Of a stretch of DNA of 64,000 nucleotides, positions 51,982-64,000 are shown in pieces. The notes beneath the pieces are model-generated. The model ran no database searches and was not told where the DNA came from. It saw only the letters and a program-made list of their open reading frames with translations. Within the stretch, counting starts at the first letter, position 1. Each line of letters opens with the position of its first letter. Made by a program: the position numbers and the translations under genes. The DNA comes from Naumannella halotolerans (lineage in GTDB: Bacteria > Actinomycetota > Actinomycetes > Propionibacteriales > Propionibacteriaceae): positions 2,046,001 to 2,110,000 of the forward strand of contig NZ_SOAW01000001.1 in assembly GCF_004364645.1 (NCBI RefSeq). Reading direction: 5' to 3'.

Positions 51982-52965
51982 TCAGCCCAGCCACTTCTCC
52001 ACCAGGTGGTCGGCGCTGACCCGCCGGATGGTGCCCGAGCGACCGCGCAGGATGATGCTCTCGGTACGGATGATCGGGCCCAGCTGATGCACCCCGGAGA
52101 CCAGGCTGCCGTCGGTCACCCCGGTGGCGACGAAGAAGGTGTTGTCGCCCCCGACCAGTTCGTCGGCGGTGTAGACGTGGTCGAACTTCAGCCCGGCATC
52201 GATGCCGTGCTGCTTCTCCTCGTCGTCCTTCGGCGCGAGCACGGTCTGGATCAATCCGCCCAGCGCCTTCACCGCGCAGGCGGTGGCCACTCCCTCGGGG
52301 CTGCCGCCGATGCCCAGGCACATGTCGAACTGGCCGTCGCGGCTGGCGGCATCGATACCGCCGGCGACGTCGCCGTCGAGCAACAGGCTGGTCCCGGCAC
52401 CGGCCTCGTGCACCTGGGCGATCAGCCCCGCATGCCGCGGCCGGTCCAGGATCGCCACCTTCAGCTCCCCGACCGGTTTGTCCAGGGCCTTGGCCAGCGC
52501 CCGCAGGTTCTCCCCCACCGGCTGCCGGATGTCGACCACGCCGATCCCGGCGGCGCCGCAGACCAGCTTGTCCATGTAGAAGACCGAGGAAGCGTCCAGC
52601 ATGGTCCCGCGGTCGGAGGCGGCGATCATCGAGATCGCATTCGGCCGGCCGGCGGCGGTCAGCGAGGTGCCGTCGATCGGGTCCACGGCGATGTCACATT
52701 CGGGGCCCTCGCCGTTGCCGACGACCTCGCCGTTGTACAGCATCGGGGCCTCGTCCTTCTCCCCCTCGCCGATCACCACGGTGCCGCGGAAGTTGACCGT
52801 GGCGAGGAACTTGCGCATGGCATCGACCGCCGCACCGTCGGCAGCGTTCTTGTCCCCCTTGCCGATGAACGGCACGGCACGGATCGCCGCTCCCTCGGTC
52901 GCCCGGACGAGCTCCAGGGCGAGGTTGCGGTCGGGGTGCTGGTACACGTCGGCAGTCTCGGACAT
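51982..52965 (-). CDS. glpX: Fructose-1,6-bisphosphatase, class II
   Basis: A 327-residue GlpX-type phosphatase for gluconeogenesis. Motifs: IGEGEKDEAPMLYNGE, the metal-binding DIAVDPIDGTSLTAAGRPNA and GIGGSPEGVATACAVKALGG. The class II enzyme is the usual FBPase in actinobacteria. ATG 52965 (MSETADVYQHPDRNLALELV) is favoured over the ATG-like extension to 53022 because it matches the conserved N-terminus. Confidence 0.96.
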   Translation of the reverse strand: MSETADVYQHPDRNLALELVRATEGAAIRAVPFIGKGDKNAADGAAVDAMRKFLATVNFRGTVVIGEGEKDEAPMLYNGEVVGNGEGPECDIAVDPIDGTSLTAAGRPNAISMIAASDRGTMLDASSVFYMDKLVCGAAGIGVVDIRQPVGENLRALAKALDKPVGELKVAILDRPRHAGLIAQVHEAGAGTSLLLDGDVAGGIDAASRDGQFDMCLGIGGSPEGVATACAVKALGGLIQTVLAPKDDEEKQHGIDAGLKFDHVYTADELVGGDNTFFVATGVTDGSLVSGVHQLGPIIRTESIILRGRSGTIRRVSADHLVEKWLG

Positions 52966-53044
52966 CAGCTGGTCACTCCGTCGGATCGCGGGCGGTACGG
53001 CGCCTCCGTACCCAGCGCCCATGCTACTGGTCGGCGACCACCGC

Positions 53045-54679
53045 TCAGCGGGCGGCTCGGACCGCCGCAGCGCGTGCGGTCTGCAGTGCCGTCAGCTCGG
53101 TCTCCACCTCACCCAGCAGCAGCCGCGAGGCGACCTCCTCGACCCCTCGACGCAGCTCGCGGCGTACCCGCCGGGCGCGTCGTGCGGCGCCGATCCCGGC
53201 GCACCATCGGCTGATCAGGGCCAGCAACAGACCGGCCAGCACCCCACCCACCAGCATCAGAGTCGGTACGGGAATGCCGAACTCACCGACCTGGACCAGC
53301 GGCAGGGCGCCGTCACCGATGTCGAACCGCAGGTAGTCCAACAGCGCCAGACCACCCAGCCAGAGCCCGCCGAGCACCGCCACGGCCAAGAACAGCCACT
53401 GGAACGCACCCGCCACCGGCCACCAGGGCGCCCGCCGGATCCGCACCGAGCGGGCCACGGTGGAATCGAGCGCATCGGCGACCGACCCGGTGGCGGCGAC
53501 GACCCGGGCATTGACCTGTTCCCCGAGGGCCGGCGGCAGACTGGCCGAGGCCGCCGCAACGTAACCCCGGGCAGCCGTCGCGATCTGTGCGGTGACCGCC
53601 GGGGAGGCCGTCGGCAGGGAGGTACGGCGCAGCTCAGCCAGGTCCTCGGTGGTCGATGCCCCCTGGTCCGGGGAAGGTCGCAGACCGAGCGTCGCCAGCG
53701 GGTCCGCCCGCAGCTTCTGCACCCAGCGCAGCGGTGGCCAGCCGGTCGCCGCGACCGCATCGCGGATGCTGGAGACCCGGACCGCCTCGACCACCGCCGG
53801 CACACCGGCTGCATGTTCCATGGCGGTCAGCAGCTGATCCCGGGAACGGGTGAGCTCACCGCCACCCGTCGACGGTGCCGCCAGTTCCGCCTCGATCGCC
53901 GCGGCTGCCGCCCGTACCTCGGCCACCAGTCGGGCGGTGGCGGCCTCCCGCCGGCGCACGGCCCGGGCGATCAGCTCGGTCAGTTCCTCGATCCCCTGCC
54001 CGGTGACCGCGGAGGTACCGACCACGGTGGCCCGCAGGCCGTCGGCGGCGACCAGCCGCCGAAGATCGTCCAGACAGGCCCGCTGCTCGGCCGGTTGCAG
54101 CCGATCGAGCTGGTTCAGCACCACCACGATCACCTCGTCGCGGCCGGTCAGCCGCTGCAGATAACGGGTGTGCAAGGTGGCATCGGCGTACTTCTGCGGG
54201 TTGGTCACCCAGATCAACAGGTCGGCACGTTCGGTGACATGGTCGGCCCGGAGCCGGTGGTCGGCGACCACCGAGTCGTGGTCGGGCAGGTCCAGCAGCA
54301 CCAGCCCGTCGGGATGGGCCCGGTCGACCTGGAGGTCGTGCCGCTCACTGACACCCAGCCAGTCCAGCAGGTCCCCGGCGCCGGCGCCGAGGGCAGCGGT
54401 CTCGGCGACCACACCGATCGGGTGGGCGGTGGTCGGGCGTTTGCTGCTGGTGGCGGCGAGTTCGGCGCCGACCAGGGCATTGAACACCGACGACTTGCCC
54501 GCACCGGTCTGACCGGCCAGCGCGACCACGGTGTGCTCGGCGGAGAAGTGGGTACGTTCGCCCGCCCGTTGCAGCACCTCGCCGGCACGGATGCGCACCG
54601 GCTCGGGAAGTCGGTCACCGGCAGCGGTCAACGCCTCCTGCAGCGCGCTGACCCGGTCGGCCAGGCTGGTCCGCGGCAT
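53045..54679 (-). CDS. Membrane-associated GTPase (YfjP/dynamin-like), partner 2
   Basis: A 544-residue protein with an N-terminal P-loop GTPase domain: G1 GQTGAGKS (56-63), G3-like LLDLPDHDS and G4 NQLDRL. The rest is helical, with two transmembrane segments at about 390-425 and 445-470 and a basic C-terminus. The G3 motif has Asp rather than Gly after DLP. Its ATG overlaps the stop of the upstream GTPase gene by one base (TGATG), so the two are made together. Resembles paired membrane-remodelling GTPases of actinobacteria; function unproven. Confidence 0.8.
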   Translation of the reverse strand: MPRTSLADRVSALQEALTAAGDRLPEPVRIRAGEVLQRAGERTHFSAEHTVVALAGQTGAGKSSVFNALVGAELAATSSKRPTTAHPIGVVAETAALGAGAGDLLDWLGVSERHDLQVDRAHPDGLVLLDLPDHDSVVADHRLRADHVTERADLLIWVTNPQKYADATLHTRYLQRLTGRDEVIVVVLNQLDRLQPAEQRACLDDLRRLVAADGLRATVVGTSAVTGQGIEELTELIARAVRRREAATARLVAEVRAAAAAIEAELAAPSTGGGELTRSRDQLLTAMEHAAGVPAVVEAVRVSSIRDAVAATGWPPLRWVQKLRADPLATLGLRPSPDQGASTTEDLAELRRTSLPTASPAVTAQIATAARGYVAAASASLPPALGEQVNARVVAATGSVADALDSTVARSVRIRRAPWWPVAGAFQWLFLAVAVLGGLWLGGLALLDYLRFDIGDGALPLVQVGEFGIPVPTLMLVGGVLAGLLLALISRWCAGIGAARRARRVRRELRRGVEEVASRLLLGEVETELTALQTARAAAVRAAR

Positions 54680-56691
54680 CAGCGTCCCCCGCCGAACAGC
54701 CGTCTCCAGAATCCGGGGCGTTCGTCCTCCTCGGCGACGACCACCTCGGTCGAGACCGGTGCTTCGAGTTCGGGCTGTCCGCGCAGGCCCGCACCGCGCA
54801 ACACCGGGCCGGGTCGTTGCACCCCTTCGGCGGGCAGCTGGGCACGCCGACCGGCCCGCTCGTCGGCATCGGCGGCCTCGAGCGCGTCGGCCGCCTGCCG
54901 CAGTTCGTCACCGGCGACTGCGGTCAGCCCGAGCGCAGCGACCGCGGTACGGGCGATCGCGGCATCGGCGTCCAGCACCGCCTGCAACCGGGCGTTCAGC
55001 CGTTCGGCCGCCTCCTTGGCCAGGCGGCGCACGGCATCATCACCGAAGACGGCCTCCAACAGTTTCTGCGCGGCGAGCGCCGTACCGCCGGCGATACCGA
55101 CCTCCACCCCGGTCAGCCCGCCGGTGCTGGCGAAGACCACCAACATCAGGGCCACACCGAGGCCGTTGACACCGAAGCTGAGACCGCGAGCCAGGCCACG
55201 TTTGGCCGCACCCTGTTCGCTGACGATCTCCAGCACATCGGCCTGCCAACCGCGGATCTGCTCGGCGACGGTGGAGCGGAGTTCGGCGGTACTGACCCCG
55301 GTCACCCCGGCGGTCGCCGAGGCGTCGACCAGCAGACCGGACCCGGCGGGGTCCGAGCGCCAGGCCGAACGCACCCGCTCCCGGGCACTCTCCAGGGCGT
55401 CGATCATCACCGCTTCGAGTCCGTGGGCGATCGCCAGCTCGACCGGTCTGGCCGACGGCTCACCACCGCGCAGGAAGGAACGCAGACCGTCGCGTACCCG
55501 GCCGACGCCGCGGTCGATGGAGCGGATGAAAGCACTCGCGCCGACGAAGTCCTGCCACCGCGCCAGCACCTCCCCGCGCAGCATGGCACCGTCGGCGGTG
55601 GCCTCGACCACCTTCGCCCGGGCGTCGTCGTAGGCGCTGTCGACGATCTGCAACAACCGCTCGGCCGAGGCGTACTGCTCATCGGCGGCACTGGCGAGCT
55701 GCCGCAGGGATCCGGCGAGATCACCGATCACCCCGTCGCGGGTGGCGAGCGCGACCTGGTCCCGGGCACCGGCATCACCGCCGAGGTCACTCAGCCAGCC
55801 GGCGATCTCGGCGACCGCCCGTTCCGGCAGCAGACCTTGGTCGTCGAGTGCGCTCTCGGGTACCGAGAACAACGGCGCCGGGCCCAGGTCGTGGGCGTCC
55901 ATCATCCGCCGCAGGTCGCCCACCACGGCCAGTTCCGAGCCCGGATCGACCCGATCGATGACCAGCGCGATCTGGGCATGTCGGCGGGCGGCGTCACCGA
56001 GCAGTTCCCACGGCACGGCATCGGCGTAGCGGGCGGCGGTGGTGACGAAGAGCCACAGGTCGGCGGCGGCGAGCAACTGCCCGGCGAGTTCCCGGTTGGC
56101 GGTCTCCACCGAGTCGATGTCGGGTGCGTCGAGCAGCGCCAGCCCGGGCGGCATGGCCGGGAAGGGGGCCAACCGCAGGGACCGTACGTCCTCGGTCCGG
56201 GTGCCGTCGCGGTCCGGTGCCGGGACAGCTCCGGCACCGGGCGAGACGGTACGGGTGTGCACCCGTTGCAGTCCGGGCAGGATCCGTTCCGGTGCGAACC
56301 ACGGAGCATCGGCGGGGTGGAAGACCAGCACCGGCGAGCGGGTGGTCGGGCGCAGCACACCCGGGGTGGTCAGCGGCGCCCCGAGCAGGGAGTTCACCAG
56401 AGTCGACTTACCGGCTCCGGTGGACCCGCCGACCACCACCAGCAACGGTGCACCGTCGGCCCGCAACCGGGGCAGCAGATAGTCGTCGATCTGGTCGATC
56501 ACCGATCGGCGTTGCCGACGGGCCTGGTCGACCCCGGCCCCGGCCAACGGCAGCGCGAGTGCGGCGAGCCGACCGCGGGCACGGTCGACGGCGCTGATCA
56601 GGCCGGGCCGTACCGCTGCGGCAGCCGGTACGGCCGGCTCCAGGGCGGGCTGCTCCCGCGCACTCGGCAACGGTGCTTCTGGCTCGGTCAC
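54679..56691 (-). CDS. Membrane-associated GTPase (dynamin-like), partner 1
   Basis: A 670-residue protein. G1 is GSTGAGKS (89-96), G3-like LLDAPDIDSV, G4 VIDRVD. A long helical middle region (residues about 290-490) is followed by a hydrophobic hairpin (GVNGLGVALMLVVFASTGGL; GIAGGTALAAQKLLEAVFGD), the usual membrane-paddle position in bacterial dynamin-like proteins, and a helical tail. It is translationally coupled to the second GTPase. The two may form a heteromer at the membrane. Confidence 0.8.
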   Translation of the reverse strand: MTEPEAPLPSAREQPALEPAVPAAAAVRPGLISAVDRARGRLAALALPLAGAGVDQARRQRRSVIDQIDDYLLPRLRADGAPLLVVVGGSTGAGKSTLVNSLLGAPLTTPGVLRPTTRSPVLVFHPADAPWFAPERILPGLQRVHTRTVSPGAGAVPAPDRDGTRTEDVRSLRLAPFPAMPPGLALLDAPDIDSVETANRELAGQLLAAADLWLFVTTAARYADAVPWELLGDAARRHAQIALVIDRVDPGSELAVVGDLRRMMDAHDLGPAPLFSVPESALDDQGLLPERAVAEIAGWLSDLGGDAGARDQVALATRDGVIGDLAGSLRQLASAADEQYASAERLLQIVDSAYDDARAKVVEATADGAMLRGEVLARWQDFVGASAFIRSIDRGVGRVRDGLRSFLRGGEPSARPVELAIAHGLEAVMIDALESARERVRSAWRSDPAGSGLLVDASATAGVTGVSTAELRSTVAEQIRGWQADVLEIVSEQGAAKRGLARGLSFGVNGLGVALMLVVFASTGGLTGVEVGIAGGTALAAQKLLEAVFGDDAVRRLAKEAAERLNARLQAVLDADAAIARTAVAALGLTAVAGDELRQAADALEAADADERAGRRAQLPAEGVQRPGPVLRGAGLRGQPELEAPVSTEVVVAEEDERPGFWRRLFGGGR

Positions 56692-56790: not shown

Positions 56791-58371
56791 TCATCCCACG
56801 GTGGCCTGCCTGCCGATCAGCTCGGCGATCCGGCCGCGGCAACCGCCGCAGCCGGTGCCGGCCCGGGTCCGCCGCCCGACGCACTCGACACTGTCGTCCC
56901 CGGCAGCCACACCATCCATGATCGACTTCACGACCACCCCATTGCACCAGCAGACGACCGCCTCGGGGGCGAACCGGTCGACCGCCCCGCCGGTGGTGAG
57001 GGCGGGGGCGTCGAGGCGCAGCAGAACGCTGCGATCGGTGGGCAGTTCGGCCTGCCCGTTGTAGAGCACGGTCAGCTCGGCCCCGACCCGGGGCATCCCG
57101 ACACAGACGAATCCCTCCAGCACGTCATCGACGGTGACCAGCTTGACGTAGGCACCCCGGGCCGGATCGACCCATTGGGAGACCTCGACACCACCGCTGC
57201 AACCGAGGGCATGGCTGCCGCTGTCCCATGGATCGGCCATCACCCGGCCGGCGGCCAGCACATCCACCCCGTCGGCCTTCAACATCACCACCGGCGGACG
57301 TTCCTCGGTCTCGGGCAGCACCGGCCCACCGGCCCGTCCGGCCTCGGCCACCAGCTGTGCGGCGACGAACTCGGCCTGTCGCCATCCCGGGCCGATCAGG
57401 CCGCGCGGCCCGCCGGGTACGGACTCGGCGCCGGCGCCCACCCGGCCGGTGGCCACATGCGCACAGTCACCGATGGCGAAGATCGACCGATCGGCCCAAC
57501 TGCGCAGGCTCGGATCGACCAGTATCCCTGCGGCGGTGGGCAGACCGGCGGCCGCAGCCAGCCCCACCCGTGCCCGGACACCGGCCGACAGCACCAGCAG
57601 ATCGCCGGGGATCCGCTCCCCGTCCTCACCGAGCAGGGCACCGAACCGCGCACCCTCGCCCGGTACGGGCTCACAGATCACACCGGTGGCCCGGAAGTCA
57701 CCGAGCATGATCACCCCGGCCCGTCGGGCCGCCCGGGCCAAGGCCTGTCCGCCACCATGATCGAGATTGCGGGCCATCGGCACCGGCCCGCTGTGGATCA
57801 GCACCACCTCCGCACCCTGATCGGCCATCGCCAACGCCGCCTCGGTACCGAGCACCCCGCCACCCAGGACCAGGATCCGCCGGCGGTCGCTGACGGCCCG
57901 GGCGACCACCTCGGCATCGGCGAGATCGCGCAACCCGACGATCCCGGCGGGCAGTCCCCGTACCTGTCGATCGTCGGCGGGTACGGCGGGATCGGTCGAC
58001 GCTTCGACCTGCGACAACCCGGCCAGCGCCGGCACATGGGCCCGGGCCCCGGTGGCCAGGACCAGCCGGTCGTAACCCAGGGACTGCCCGTCACCGAGTG
58101 TCAGCCGGCGGGCTGTCCGATCGATCGCGGTGACGGCCGTACCGGTGAGCACCCGGACGCCGGTTGCTGCAACGGCTTCAGCGTCGATGATGTCCAGCGC
58201 CCGGCGGTCCACCTTGTTCGCGGCGAACTCCGAGACCAGTACCCGGTTGTAGGCCTGCTCGGGTTCGGCACCGACCACCGTCAGGTCGATCCGCCCGGTT
58301 TCGACCGCCGGCAGCACCTCCTCGACGAACCTGGCCCCGACCGGCCCGTACCCCACCAGCACGACACGCAT
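56791..58371 (-). CDS. nasB: FAD/NAD(P)H oxidoreductase with BFD-type [2Fe-2S] domain, nitrate-reductase electron-transfer subunit
   Basis: A 526-residue flavoprotein. FAD motif VLVGYGPVGARFVEEV at the N-terminus, NAD(P) motif ILVLGGGVLGTEAALAMADQ, FAD-closing IFAIGDCAHVATG, and a C-terminal BFD-like cluster domain (VVCWCNGVVVK ... GTGCGGCRGRIAEL). It resembles the N-terminal half of NirB but lacks the sirohaem domain, matching NasB-type subunits that pass electrons from NAD(P)H to assimilatory nitrate reductase. The ATG overlaps the reductase stop by one base (TGATG). Confidence 0.88.
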   Translation of the reverse strand: MRVVLVGYGPVGARFVEEVLPAVETGRIDLTVVGAEPEQAYNRVLVSEFAANKVDRRALDIIDAEAVAATGVRVLTGTAVTAIDRTARRLTLGDGQSLGYDRLVLATGARAHVPALAGLSQVEASTDPAVPADDRQVRGLPAGIVGLRDLADAEVVARAVSDRRRILVLGGGVLGTEAALAMADQGAEVVLIHSGPVPMARNLDHGGGQALARAARRAGVIMLGDFRATGVICEPVPGEGARFGALLGEDGERIPGDLLVLSAGVRARVGLAAAAGLPTAAGILVDPSLRSWADRSIFAIGDCAHVATGRVGAGAESVPGGPRGLIGPGWRQAEFVAAQLVAEAGRAGGPVLPETEERPPVVMLKADGVDVLAAGRVMADPWDSGSHALGCSGGVEVSQWVDPARGAYVKLVTVDDVLEGFVCVGMPRVGAELTVLYNGQAELPTDRSVLLRLDAPALTTGGAVDRFAPEAVVCWCNGVVVKSIMDGVAAGDDSVECVGRRTRAGTGCGGCRGRIAELIGRQATVG

Positions 58372-62025: not shown

Positions 62026-62730
62026 TCAGTCGCGACCGTCGTAGAGTTCGCCGACGATCTCGACCAGTTCGGGTGGTACGGGGCCGTCGGCGGTCAACAG
62101 GGGCTCGGTGGTGACATCGGCGCCGGCGGCTGCCGCGCGGCCGGCGAAGAAACCGGGGGCGAGCAGGTAGGTGGCGACGAAGACCCGCCCCGAGCCCTCC
62201 GCGCGGACCTGCTGCACGGCTGCTGCCAGGCCCGGTTCGGCATGGGCCAGGAAGGCTGCGGTGACCGGTCGCTGCACGAGCTCGGCCAGGTACGCCGCGG
62301 TCAGTCGGCAGTCGCGTACCGCCGAGGCATCGGTGGACCCGGCGGCACCGAGCACCACCCGATCGGTGGACTCGGCGTCGAAACCGGCCTCCAGCAACCG
62401 TCGGTGCAGCAGTTGCGCCAACCGCCGGTCCGGGCCGAGTGCCCCGCTCACCGTGACCGGGCGCTGCGTGGCCTGCCGGGTCTGCTGCAGGTCCACGTGG
62501 ACGTGGAATCCGGCCGAGAGCAGCAACGGCACGATCCGGGCCCCGACCTCGTCCGGCAACCCGGCCAGGGTACGGGTGACATCGGGCTCCTGGACGTCGA
62601 CGAAACTCGGCTCGACGACCAGCTCCGGCCGGGCCGCACGGACCGCGTCGACCAGTCCGGCGACGGCGCGCTGTCCGGCCGGGTCGGCAGTCCCGTGCGA
62701 GGCAGCGACCAGTACTGGTCGAGGGGCCAC
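62026..62730 (-). CDS. sirB: Sirohydrochlorin ferrochelatase (CbiX/SirB family)
   Basis: A 234-residue two-repeat chelatase that inserts iron into sirohydrochlorin to make sirohaem. Start of the fold: VLVAASHGTADPAGQRAVAG (active-site His), second repeat TAAFLAHAEPGLAAAVQQVR and FVATYLLAPGFFAGRAAAAG. The GTG at 62730 has GAGGGGG six bases upstream. The same frame is open upstream through the nirD remnant, so a NirD-SirB fusion protein is formally possible. Sirohaem would serve nitrite or sulphite reductase. Confidence 0.85.
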   Translation of the reverse strand: MAPRPVLVAASHGTADPAGQRAVAGLVDAVRAARPELVVEPSFVDVQEPDVTRTLAGLPDEVGARIVPLLLSAGFHVHVDLQQTRQATQRPVTVSGALGPDRRLAQLLHRRLLEAGFDAESTDRVVLGAAGSTDASAVRDCRLTAAYLAELVQRPVTAAFLAHAEPGLAAAVQQVRAEGSGRVFVATYLLAPGFFAGRAAAAGADVTTEPLLTADGPVPPELVEIVGELYDGRD

Positions 62731-62949
62731 GAAGATCACCCCCTCATCCTCTCGTACCCACCAGGTCGGCAGGTGCAGCTCCCCCGGACGGGTGTAGCAC
62801 TCCCCGGTCTGGAGGTCGAAGACATCCTTGTGCAGCGGCGAGGCGATGGTCGCCCGGCCGGCTCGGGAACCGACGATCCCCCGGGACATGACCGCGGCCC
62901 CGGTGGCCGGGTCGTGGTTGGAGACCGCGAAGATCCGGCCATCGGGGAC
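62731..62949 (-). pseudogene. nirD: 5'-truncated nitrite reductase small subunit, in frame with sirB
   Basis: DGRIFAVSNHDPATGAAVMS, then ASPLHKDVFDLQTGECY, is the Rieske-like fold of NirD from about its residue 33 onward. The N-terminal third and a start codon are absent: upstream bases belong to the divergent cobA gene. There is also no stop before sirB. The remnant suggests that a rearrangement removed the 5' end of nirD, perhaps with nirB, and joined cobA-hemD at this point. Confidence 0.75.
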
Positions 62950-62988
62950 CAGGGCGCCGAGCCGTTGCCGCCGACCCCGGCGGGCTGG

Positions 62989-63780
62989 GTGAGCCTGGTC
63001 GGGGGCGGGCCCGGTGACCCCGGGTTGCTGACCGGCCGGGCGGTCCGGGCGATCGGCGAGGCAGATGTGGTGCTGCACGATCGACTGTGCCCGCGCGAGG
63101 CGCTGCTCGACCTGGCTCCGGGTGCCGAGTTGATCGACGTCGGCAAACGTCCCGGCCACCACGCCATGCCGCAGGAGGAGATCGAACGACTGATGGTGGA
63201 CCGGGCCCGGCGCGGATTGCGGGTGGTACGGCTGAAGGGCGGCGACCCGTTCGTCTTCGGCCGGGGCGGTGAGGAGGTCCTGACCTGCCGTCGGGCCGGC
63301 GTACCGGTGGAGGTCGTACCCGGTGTGTCCAGTGCCATCGCCGTTCCCGCTGCCGCCGGGATCCCGGTGACCCACCGCGGTGTGGCCCATGCCTTCACGG
63401 TGATCTCGGCCCATGCCGGACTGGGTGAGGACGAACTGCAGCAGCTCGCGCAGCTGGATGGGACGATCGTCGTCCTGATGGGGGTCGGCACCTTGGACCA
63501 GGTGCTCGACGGGTTGCGCCGTCACGGCATGTCCGATCACACCCCGGTGGCGATCATCGAGCGCGGGTTCAGCGCCGACGAGCGTCGGCTGGTCTCCACG
63601 ATCGGTGCGATCGGTGCACAGGTACCGGAGTTCGCACCTGTCTCGCCGGCGGTGATCGTGATCGGGGCGGTGGTCGCCGCTCTGACCGAAAACGTCTCGG
63701 GGTCGGCCCCGCAGTGCGAAACTGACCCCGACACCAAGACGGTGCTCGGCCCGGTCCTGCAGGCACTCGGTCCGAGCTGA
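62989..63780 (+). CDS. cobA: Uroporphyrinogen-III C-methyltransferase (SUMT)
   Basis: A 263-residue SAM-dependent enzyme that methylates uroporphyrinogen III twice to precorrin-2, the branch point to sirohaem and cobalamin. Motifs: VSLVGGGPGDPGLLTGRAVR, VVRLKGGDPFVFGRGGEEV, VVPGVSSAIAVPAAAGIPVT and VVLMGVGTLDQVLDGLRRHG. It is the CobA-only form without CysG dehydrogenase/chelatase domains, consistent with the separate sirB. GTG 62989 is the likely start; no good ribosome site is visible. hemD follows after 14 bases. Confidence 0.92.
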   Translation: MSLVGGGPGDPGLLTGRAVRAIGEADVVLHDRLCPREALLDLAPGAELIDVGKRPGHHAMPQEEIERLMVDRARRGLRVVRLKGGDPFVFGRGGEEVLTCRRAGVPVEVVPGVSSAIAVPAAAGIPVTHRGVAHAFTVISAHAGLGEDELQQLAQLDGTIVVLMGVGTLDQVLDGLRRHGMSDHTPVAIIERGFSADERRLVSTIGAIGAQVPEFAPVSPAVIVIGAVVAALTENVSGSAPQCETDPDTKTVLGPVLQALGPS

Positions 63781-63794
63781 GCGTTGGGACTCCG

Positions 63795-64000
63795 ATGTCA
63801 GGAACGCCCGGACCGGGCACATGCGATCGGCCCGGACGCACATCATCGACCGGGTTCGCCCCCGACCAGTTGCGCGGTTTCCGGATCGGTGTGACCGCCG
63901 ACCGGCGGGCCGAGGATCTGATCGCCGCCTTCGAACGACGCGGTGCCGAGGTGCTCCACGCCCCGACCATCCGGATGACCGATGTCGCCGACGACGGTGA
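63795..64000 (+). CDS. hemD: Uroporphyrinogen-III synthase, 5' part only
   Basis: Runs off the window. From ATG 63795 the frame reads a short variable N-terminus, then FAPDQLRGFRIGVTADRRAE and LIAAFERRGAEVLHAPTIRM, the start of a HemD domain. HemD cyclises hydroxymethylbilane to uroporphyrinogen III, the CobA substrate; the cobA-hemD order is common. Confidence 0.8.
   Translation, partial: MSGTPGPGTCDRPGRTSSTGFAPDQLRGFRIGVTADRRAEDLIAAFERRGAEVLHAPTIRMTDVADDG

Follow-up and report, generated by a model that had tools for sequence, protein, structure and literature searches.

Two adjacent genes, here designated A and B, in a 64,000-nucleotide stretch of the Naumannella halotolerans genome (contig NZ_SOAW01000001.1, positions 2,046,001 to 2,110,000; hereafter the window) encode a pair of dynamin-like proteins that, on the evidence gathered here and as judged by sequence, belongs to the actinobacterial DynA/DynB family. 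This family was already known and has been studied in Streptomyces, according to the available parts of PMC8748795 and PMC6428758, so that the initial annotation went too far in counting the pair among poorly described systems. Its broader proposal of a two-component bacterial dynamin-like pair was supported by the sequence family, by the co-occurrence and adjacency of the genes and by the predicted fold. We consider it fairly probable that A and B are DynA- and DynB-like subunits of a heterotypic, membrane-anchored assembly of the division site, which was gained horizontally while the native copy was lost. The system is of a known kind and less mysterious than had been proposed; its unexpected parts are the replacement history and the unequal G4 motifs of the two proteins.

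The gene pair and its Streptomyces relatives

A and B are real genes, since both exceeded the Pfam cut-off of 27 bits for Dynamin_N (scores in Table 1) and since their presence and absence were identical in 57/57 genomes, namely the window's own and 56 relatives, with both genes matched in 43 and neither in 14 (E 1e-5). The coordinates and the TGATG overlap first given for them proved exact when compared with the sequence and its open reading frames. Dynamin_N was also matched by all 11 rows of alignment A2, and further matches to this domain, weaker than those of A and B, were found elsewhere in the window's genome. B followed A on the same strand in all 31 pairs of the loci examined, and the projected gap between them ranged from 119 to 918 bases within eight Streptomyces-like loci, drawn from eight genomes of one genus that we read as Streptomyces, and from –13 to 173 bases outside them. 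Searches of class-wide samples, with three to four candidates scored per genome, matched B in 146 of 295 genomes and A in 188 of 393, and within the window's own family, Propionibacteriaceae, A was matched in 168/198 genomes, or 124/141 when well-assembled ones were considered (E 1e-20). An exact short-pattern locus search, which reaches close relatives only, gave seven loci, and a plasmid search gave a single match, in an 11.85-Mb Nonomuraea gerenzanensis record classified as a plasmid, whose matched stretches bear no annotated features.

The two G domains are unequal. P-loops and G4 motifs had been ascribed to both proteins, and for B this was upheld, given that its G4, NQLD, conformed to NxxD in 63/63 distinct rows of the alignment and the G1 motif was likewise found; the G4 of A did not stand, because a canonical [N/T]xxD was present in none of the 57 distinct rows. 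This site reads DRVD in the window protein and mostly DRVP or similar in the other rows, the final Asp being kept in 8/57. The G3 motifs described as atypical, DAPD in A and DLPD in B, are indeed present and turned out to be the norm of the family, as DxPD was found in 57/57 distinct A rows and 63/63 distinct B rows. On these motifs, B, with G1 and G4 complete and G3 in the form DxPD, is a predicted GTPase, and A is classed as a dynamin-like protein and not as an active GTPase, because of the missing canonical G4.

The link with Streptomyces was drawn from the Streptomyces-like loci, where homologues of both genes were found in 8/8 cases (251–272 bits for A and 174–217 bits for B). In these genomes A scored as Dynamin_N in 8/8, being the sole match at E 1e-5 or better in seven, and B fell short of E 1e-5 against the same domain in the eight genomes. 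The pair shares with its Streptomyces-like counterparts the adjacent A-then-B order on one strand, DxPD in both proteins, a degenerate A G4 (LDRVP in 8/8 loci), a B G4 of the form NQ[VI]D (8/8) and hydrophobic segments at the C-terminus of B, which match the published topology of DynB, with two transmembrane segments (PMC8748795, in part). It differs in its neighbours, since in Streptomyces SSB and ABC-F genes come after the pair and the window pair adjoins glpX, and in the lack of any SsgA-family match in the window's genome. Two side observations concern these loci: one Streptomyces-like genome carries three further and stronger Dynamin_N genes in a row (G099:C1:6512468-6516813), and the B frames of L085-L092 begin well before the part that matches window B, which suggests an extra N-terminal region. 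The gene sven2472, which we take to be dynA, corresponds to sco2685 and is labelled 'putative ATP-binding protein', and SCO2683 is presumably ssbB.

In S. venezuelae, dynA (vnz_12110) and dynB (vnz_12105) form the dynAB operon, and their products stabilise Z-rings in sporulation septation through contacts with FtsZ, SepF, SepF2 and SsgB, as described in the accessible sections of PMC6428758. DynB also binds SepX, a mutant devoid of the transmembrane segments failing to do so, and the co-occurrence of sepX and dynB reaches unicellular actinobacteria (PMC8748795, in the portions available). With regard to these partners, one SepF match was found in the window's genome.

Predicted fold and the weighing of function

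The AlphaFold models were built from shallow alignments (9 sequences for A and 11 for B) and reached a mean predicted local distance difference test (pLDDT) value of 73.2 and a predicted template modelling (pTM) score of 0.69 for A, and 84.6 and 0.68 for B. Both models contain long helices outside the G domain, in keeping with the helical stalks initially noticed, and the membrane hairpins found similar backing in hydropathy, which revealed two hydrophobic stretches inside the last 190 residues of B in 69/70 rows and at least one hydrophobic segment anywhere in the chain of A in 57/61 rows. In A, a hydrophobic helical hairpin was modelled at about residues 503–549, with low to moderate confidence there. 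Foldseek searches of the PDB placed BDLP (E 8.6e-9), IniA and the Campylobacter dynamin pair as the best matches of A, and Campylobacter Cj-DLP (E 5.3e-9, TM 0.30), BDLP and IniA at the top for B. In a second structural comparison, residues 18–616 of A were aligned with a truncated Fzo1 over 334 residues (Z 22.7; root-mean-square deviation 4.3), in an alignment that includes the predicted neck bundle of N- and C-terminal helices; as this Fzo1 construct is truncated, the trunk and tip of A are features of the AlphaFold model. The lack of a dynamin-like stalk, which would have counted against the initial proposal, was not seen for A, whose neck helices align with Fzo1; the model of B shows a clear G domain, and its stalk is weakly matched and less firmly assigned than that of A. 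Sequence searches of the PDB with A and B returned other GTPases, immunity-related GTPases and a few ATPases and kinases, and no BDLP, IniA, mitofusin or other dynamin-like protein.

These matches bring the pair close to several known systems without equating it with them. IniA of Mycobacterium is likewise an actinobacterial dynamin-like protein and was matched structurally by both models, but sequence searches of solved structures did not retrieve it, so that the likeness is one of fold. Campylobacter Cj-DLP1/Cj-DLP2 are a heterotypic pair encoded side by side, but they are cytosolic, and their knockout showed no obvious division defect according to the available text of PMC6104087. Nostoc BDLP and mitofusin/Fzo1 share the combination of a G domain with neck helices from both chain ends, but at 12–15% identity, and they are not an operon pair of the DynA/DynB family.

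Several points weigh against placing the pair in a division-site assembly. The Streptomyces pair was recognised by exclusion, by its gene order and by its topology; the family link runs through the Streptomyces-like loci, the named S. venezuelae DynA and DynB sequences lying outside the comparison. The SsgA family, which includes the published partner SsgB, had no match in the window's genome and six in a Streptomyces-like control (G135), and nothing in the present surroundings of the genes points to division. Small GTPases led the second structural comparison of B, where they aligned to the G domain (Era, Z 18.0); IniA reached Z 17.2 across 240 residues, and most rows spanned residues 4–267. 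Whole-chain template modelling (TM) scores in Foldseek, calculated by query length, were low among the 50 rows shown (0.15–0.40 for A and 0.23–0.30 for B); such low whole-chain scores are common for bent multi-domain chains. Finally, A had no match in 17 of the 141 well-assembled genomes of the family at E 1e-20, so the pair is dispensable.

The main rival builds on some of these same points, and holds that A and B are a dynamin pair serving membrane repair or envelope stress in general, in the way suggested for B. subtilis DynA or mycobacterial IniA, with no tie to the divisome. The match of both models to the IniA, Cj-DLP and BDLP folds, the SsgA-family result and the absence of the pair from part of the family would all suit it. 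However, the reports of a pair acting at the Z-ring concern the family pair of Streptomyces, as identified here, the scan of neighbouring genes turned up no recognisable stress gene, and the membrane-repair role suggested by the initial annotation obtained no specific support in this analysis, so that we regard this explanation as unlikely. By analogy, and given the published link of Streptomyces DynA/DynB to Z-ring stability, a divisome-associated membrane module is expected, rather than a system devoted mainly to repair or phage defence.

Probable foreign origin and genomic surroundings

The phylogenetic position of the pair points outside its own family. The A tree comprised 61 rows, 57 of them different, after omission of rows cut by locus ends (L039-L046 and L054-L082) and of L052, and the B tree comprised 70 rows, 63 of them different, without L009-L038; rows were cut about 15 residues ahead of the projected start, and some may begin with untranslated residues. 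Window A was sister to Microbacterium ulmi (71% identity, support 99/93), inside a clade of Microbacteriaceae, Promicromonosporaceae, Cellulomonadaceae and one further genome (100/100), and the 20 rows of its own family formed a separate clade (100/100). We take the order of these neighbouring families to be Micrococcales. The B tree was concordant, grouping window B with two Microbacteriaceae rows (100/100). Approximately unbiased (AU) tests, run on quick trees without L084 and L099 and with groups (20 family rows for A and 5 for B) picked after the trees had been seen, rejected the grouping of either sequence with its own family: forcing it cost 280 units of log-likelihood for A (p-AU 1.85e-42) and 169 for B (p-AU 1.25e-9).

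The site where the family would carry its native pair could be located in the sister species, G001, which has the order ABC-F, SSB, B, A, PrsW (a PrsW-like protease gene) and an A protein 48% identical to window A. In the window's genome, where the window pair is the only one found, the corresponding site shares a contig with that pair, at a distance of about 280 kb; it reads ABC-F, SSB, PrsW, and the ABC-F protein beside it is 94% identical between the two genomes. About 250 bases separate the matched parts of SSB and PrsW there, a stretch with no match to window A or B nor to the frames of the G001 pair. The simplest reading is that the native pair was lost and a foreign pair was gained from a distant relative by horizontal transfer; the direction and the order of gain and loss are what we infer from these comparisons.

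It could be argued instead that no transfer took place, and that this lineage retained an ancient second pair, which the other sampled Propionibacteriales lost, the native pair having been lost here as well. In fact, Cellulomonadaceae, Promicromonosporaceae and one further genome (L048-L051 and L093) carry two dynamin pairs around an SSB and an ABC-F gene. In the two families one pair lies before these genes and the other after, and it is the second of them with which the window pair clusters. However, many independent losses would be needed, and the close relationship with Microbacterium ulmi stands apart from the family search with A, in which the matches listed reached at most 52% identity, apart from a closer fragment from G003 (57% over 218 residues in the search and 58% compared directly) that is of the native type, being 75–76% identical to A of G018 and G001. 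We therefore hold this alternative to be very improbable and retain horizontal replacement.

The typical neighbourhood of the family is also missing around the window pair (Table 1). Of the 29 loci examined, 19 have an SSB-family frame and 22 an ABC-F-sized relative, and a PrsW-type frame stood directly upstream of A in four of the five loci from the window's order; Pfam confirmed three SSB frames, one ABC-F frame and one PrsW frame. The ABC-F gene is presumably the one named EttA. The window pair has none of these neighbours and lies between glpX and a nitrate-assimilation gene.

Table 1. Coordinates of the gene pair and its immediate neighbours, in positions of the window
Feature	Position	Strand	Description
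Gene A, DynA-like	56691..54679	minus	Upstream member; GTG start, 670 aa; Dynamin_N 37.3 bits; N-terminal helices, G domain, long helices, hydrophobic helical hairpin, C-terminal helices; P-loop GGSTGAGKST, RPTT, G3 DAPD, degenerate G4 DRVD
Gene B, DynB-like	54679..53045	minus	ATG start, 544 aa; Dynamin_N 40.4 bits; N-terminal helices, G domain, helical region, two C-terminal hydrophobic (transmembrane) segments; P-loop GQTGAGKSS, RPTT, G3 DLPD, canonical G4 NQLD
A/B overlap	54679..54681	minus	TGATG; the last base of the A TGA is the first base of the B ATG (one-base overlap)
glpX, class II fructose-1,6-bisphosphatase	51982..53022	minus	Downstream neighbour; Pfam
FAD/BFD-type oxidoreductase, nitrate-assimilation cluster	56791..58371	minus	Upstream neighbour; Pfam

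A conserved operon with glpX was considered and rejected, as GlpX had no match in the 29 loci and glpX itself is patchy, with matches in 22 of 37 genomes, the window's own among them, and none in the sister species (E 1e-20). Its best relative is that of G015 (74%); other family members, at 51–55%, are no closer than genomes outside the family, at 54–58%. On the other side, the FAD/BFD oxidoreductase is 35–37% identical to its counterpart in G001 and G005, and the adjacent molybdopterin oxidoreductase reaches 60–64%; the former may have come in together with the pair. The acquired stretch may thus be larger than the pair, given the uneven conservation of glpX and of the gene directly upstream of A. 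The pair lies on a 2.39-Mb contig, the listed contamination is 0.48%, and the nitrate genes 2–5 kb upstream of A are partly collinear with those of G001 and G005, which argues against a misjoined contig. A scan for promoters and terminators found none, with shuffle means of 0.1 and 0.7. Beside the nitrate genes, one frame (62026-63846, minus strand) matches a Rieske-type domain and CbiX, and its sequence suggests a fused nitrite-reductase small subunit and sirohydrochlorin chelatase. A literature search retrieved no paper joining an actinobacterial dynamin operon with glpX, none on paired-dynamin phylogeny and none joining SsbB with SCO2683.

The least probable explanation, a phage-defence module or mobile-element cargo, would accord with the transfer indicated by the trees and with weak PADLOC matches to the LeoA, LeoBC, Mads and PifA models, but we reject it because these matches reached 11–25 bits and fell mainly on the G domain, the family occurs widely and has a conserved neighbourhood, the window holds no tRNA gene, and no repeat frames the pair, only one pair of 22-base partial copies lying inside it.

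Proposed mechanism and meaning

Bacterial dynamin-like proteins are usually encoded in pairs and rely on heterotypic pairing (PMC6104087, in the part available). From Streptomyces and other bacterial pairs, A and B would form a heterotypic, membrane-anchored assembly, in which the C-terminal hairpin of B would anchor this protein to the cytoplasmic membrane and B, with complete GTP-binding motifs, would act as the working GTPase. A would add a hydrophobic tip, and its G domain, as the degenerate G4 suggests, would probably be regulatory or altered in nucleotide binding. The task of the complex at the division site would be to stabilise FtsZ rings and to give shape to the septal membrane, as reported for Streptomyces DynA/DynB. 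The interaction of A with B, their septal location, their action on FtsZ and their unequal roles are thus put forward by analogy.

More tentatively, the division-associated dynamin pair might behave as an exchangeable two-gene cassette: an entire foreign pair, coming from another order, would have displaced the native pair and assumed its function alongside the resident divisome. Its subunits would be unequal, with B doing the GTPase work and A, devoid of a G4, either using another nucleotide or serving as a regulatory pseudo-GTPase.

If the foreign pair does the job of the native one, a membrane complex linked to the divisome would have been complemented naturally by its counterpart from a distant lineage, and the contacts that matter most to it would be those between A and B or those with broadly conserved partners like SepF. 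With the G4 of A degenerate, which subunit hydrolyses GTP also becomes a directly testable question. Moreover, a system studied in sporulating Streptomyces would be extended to a genome in which no SsgA-family protein was found.

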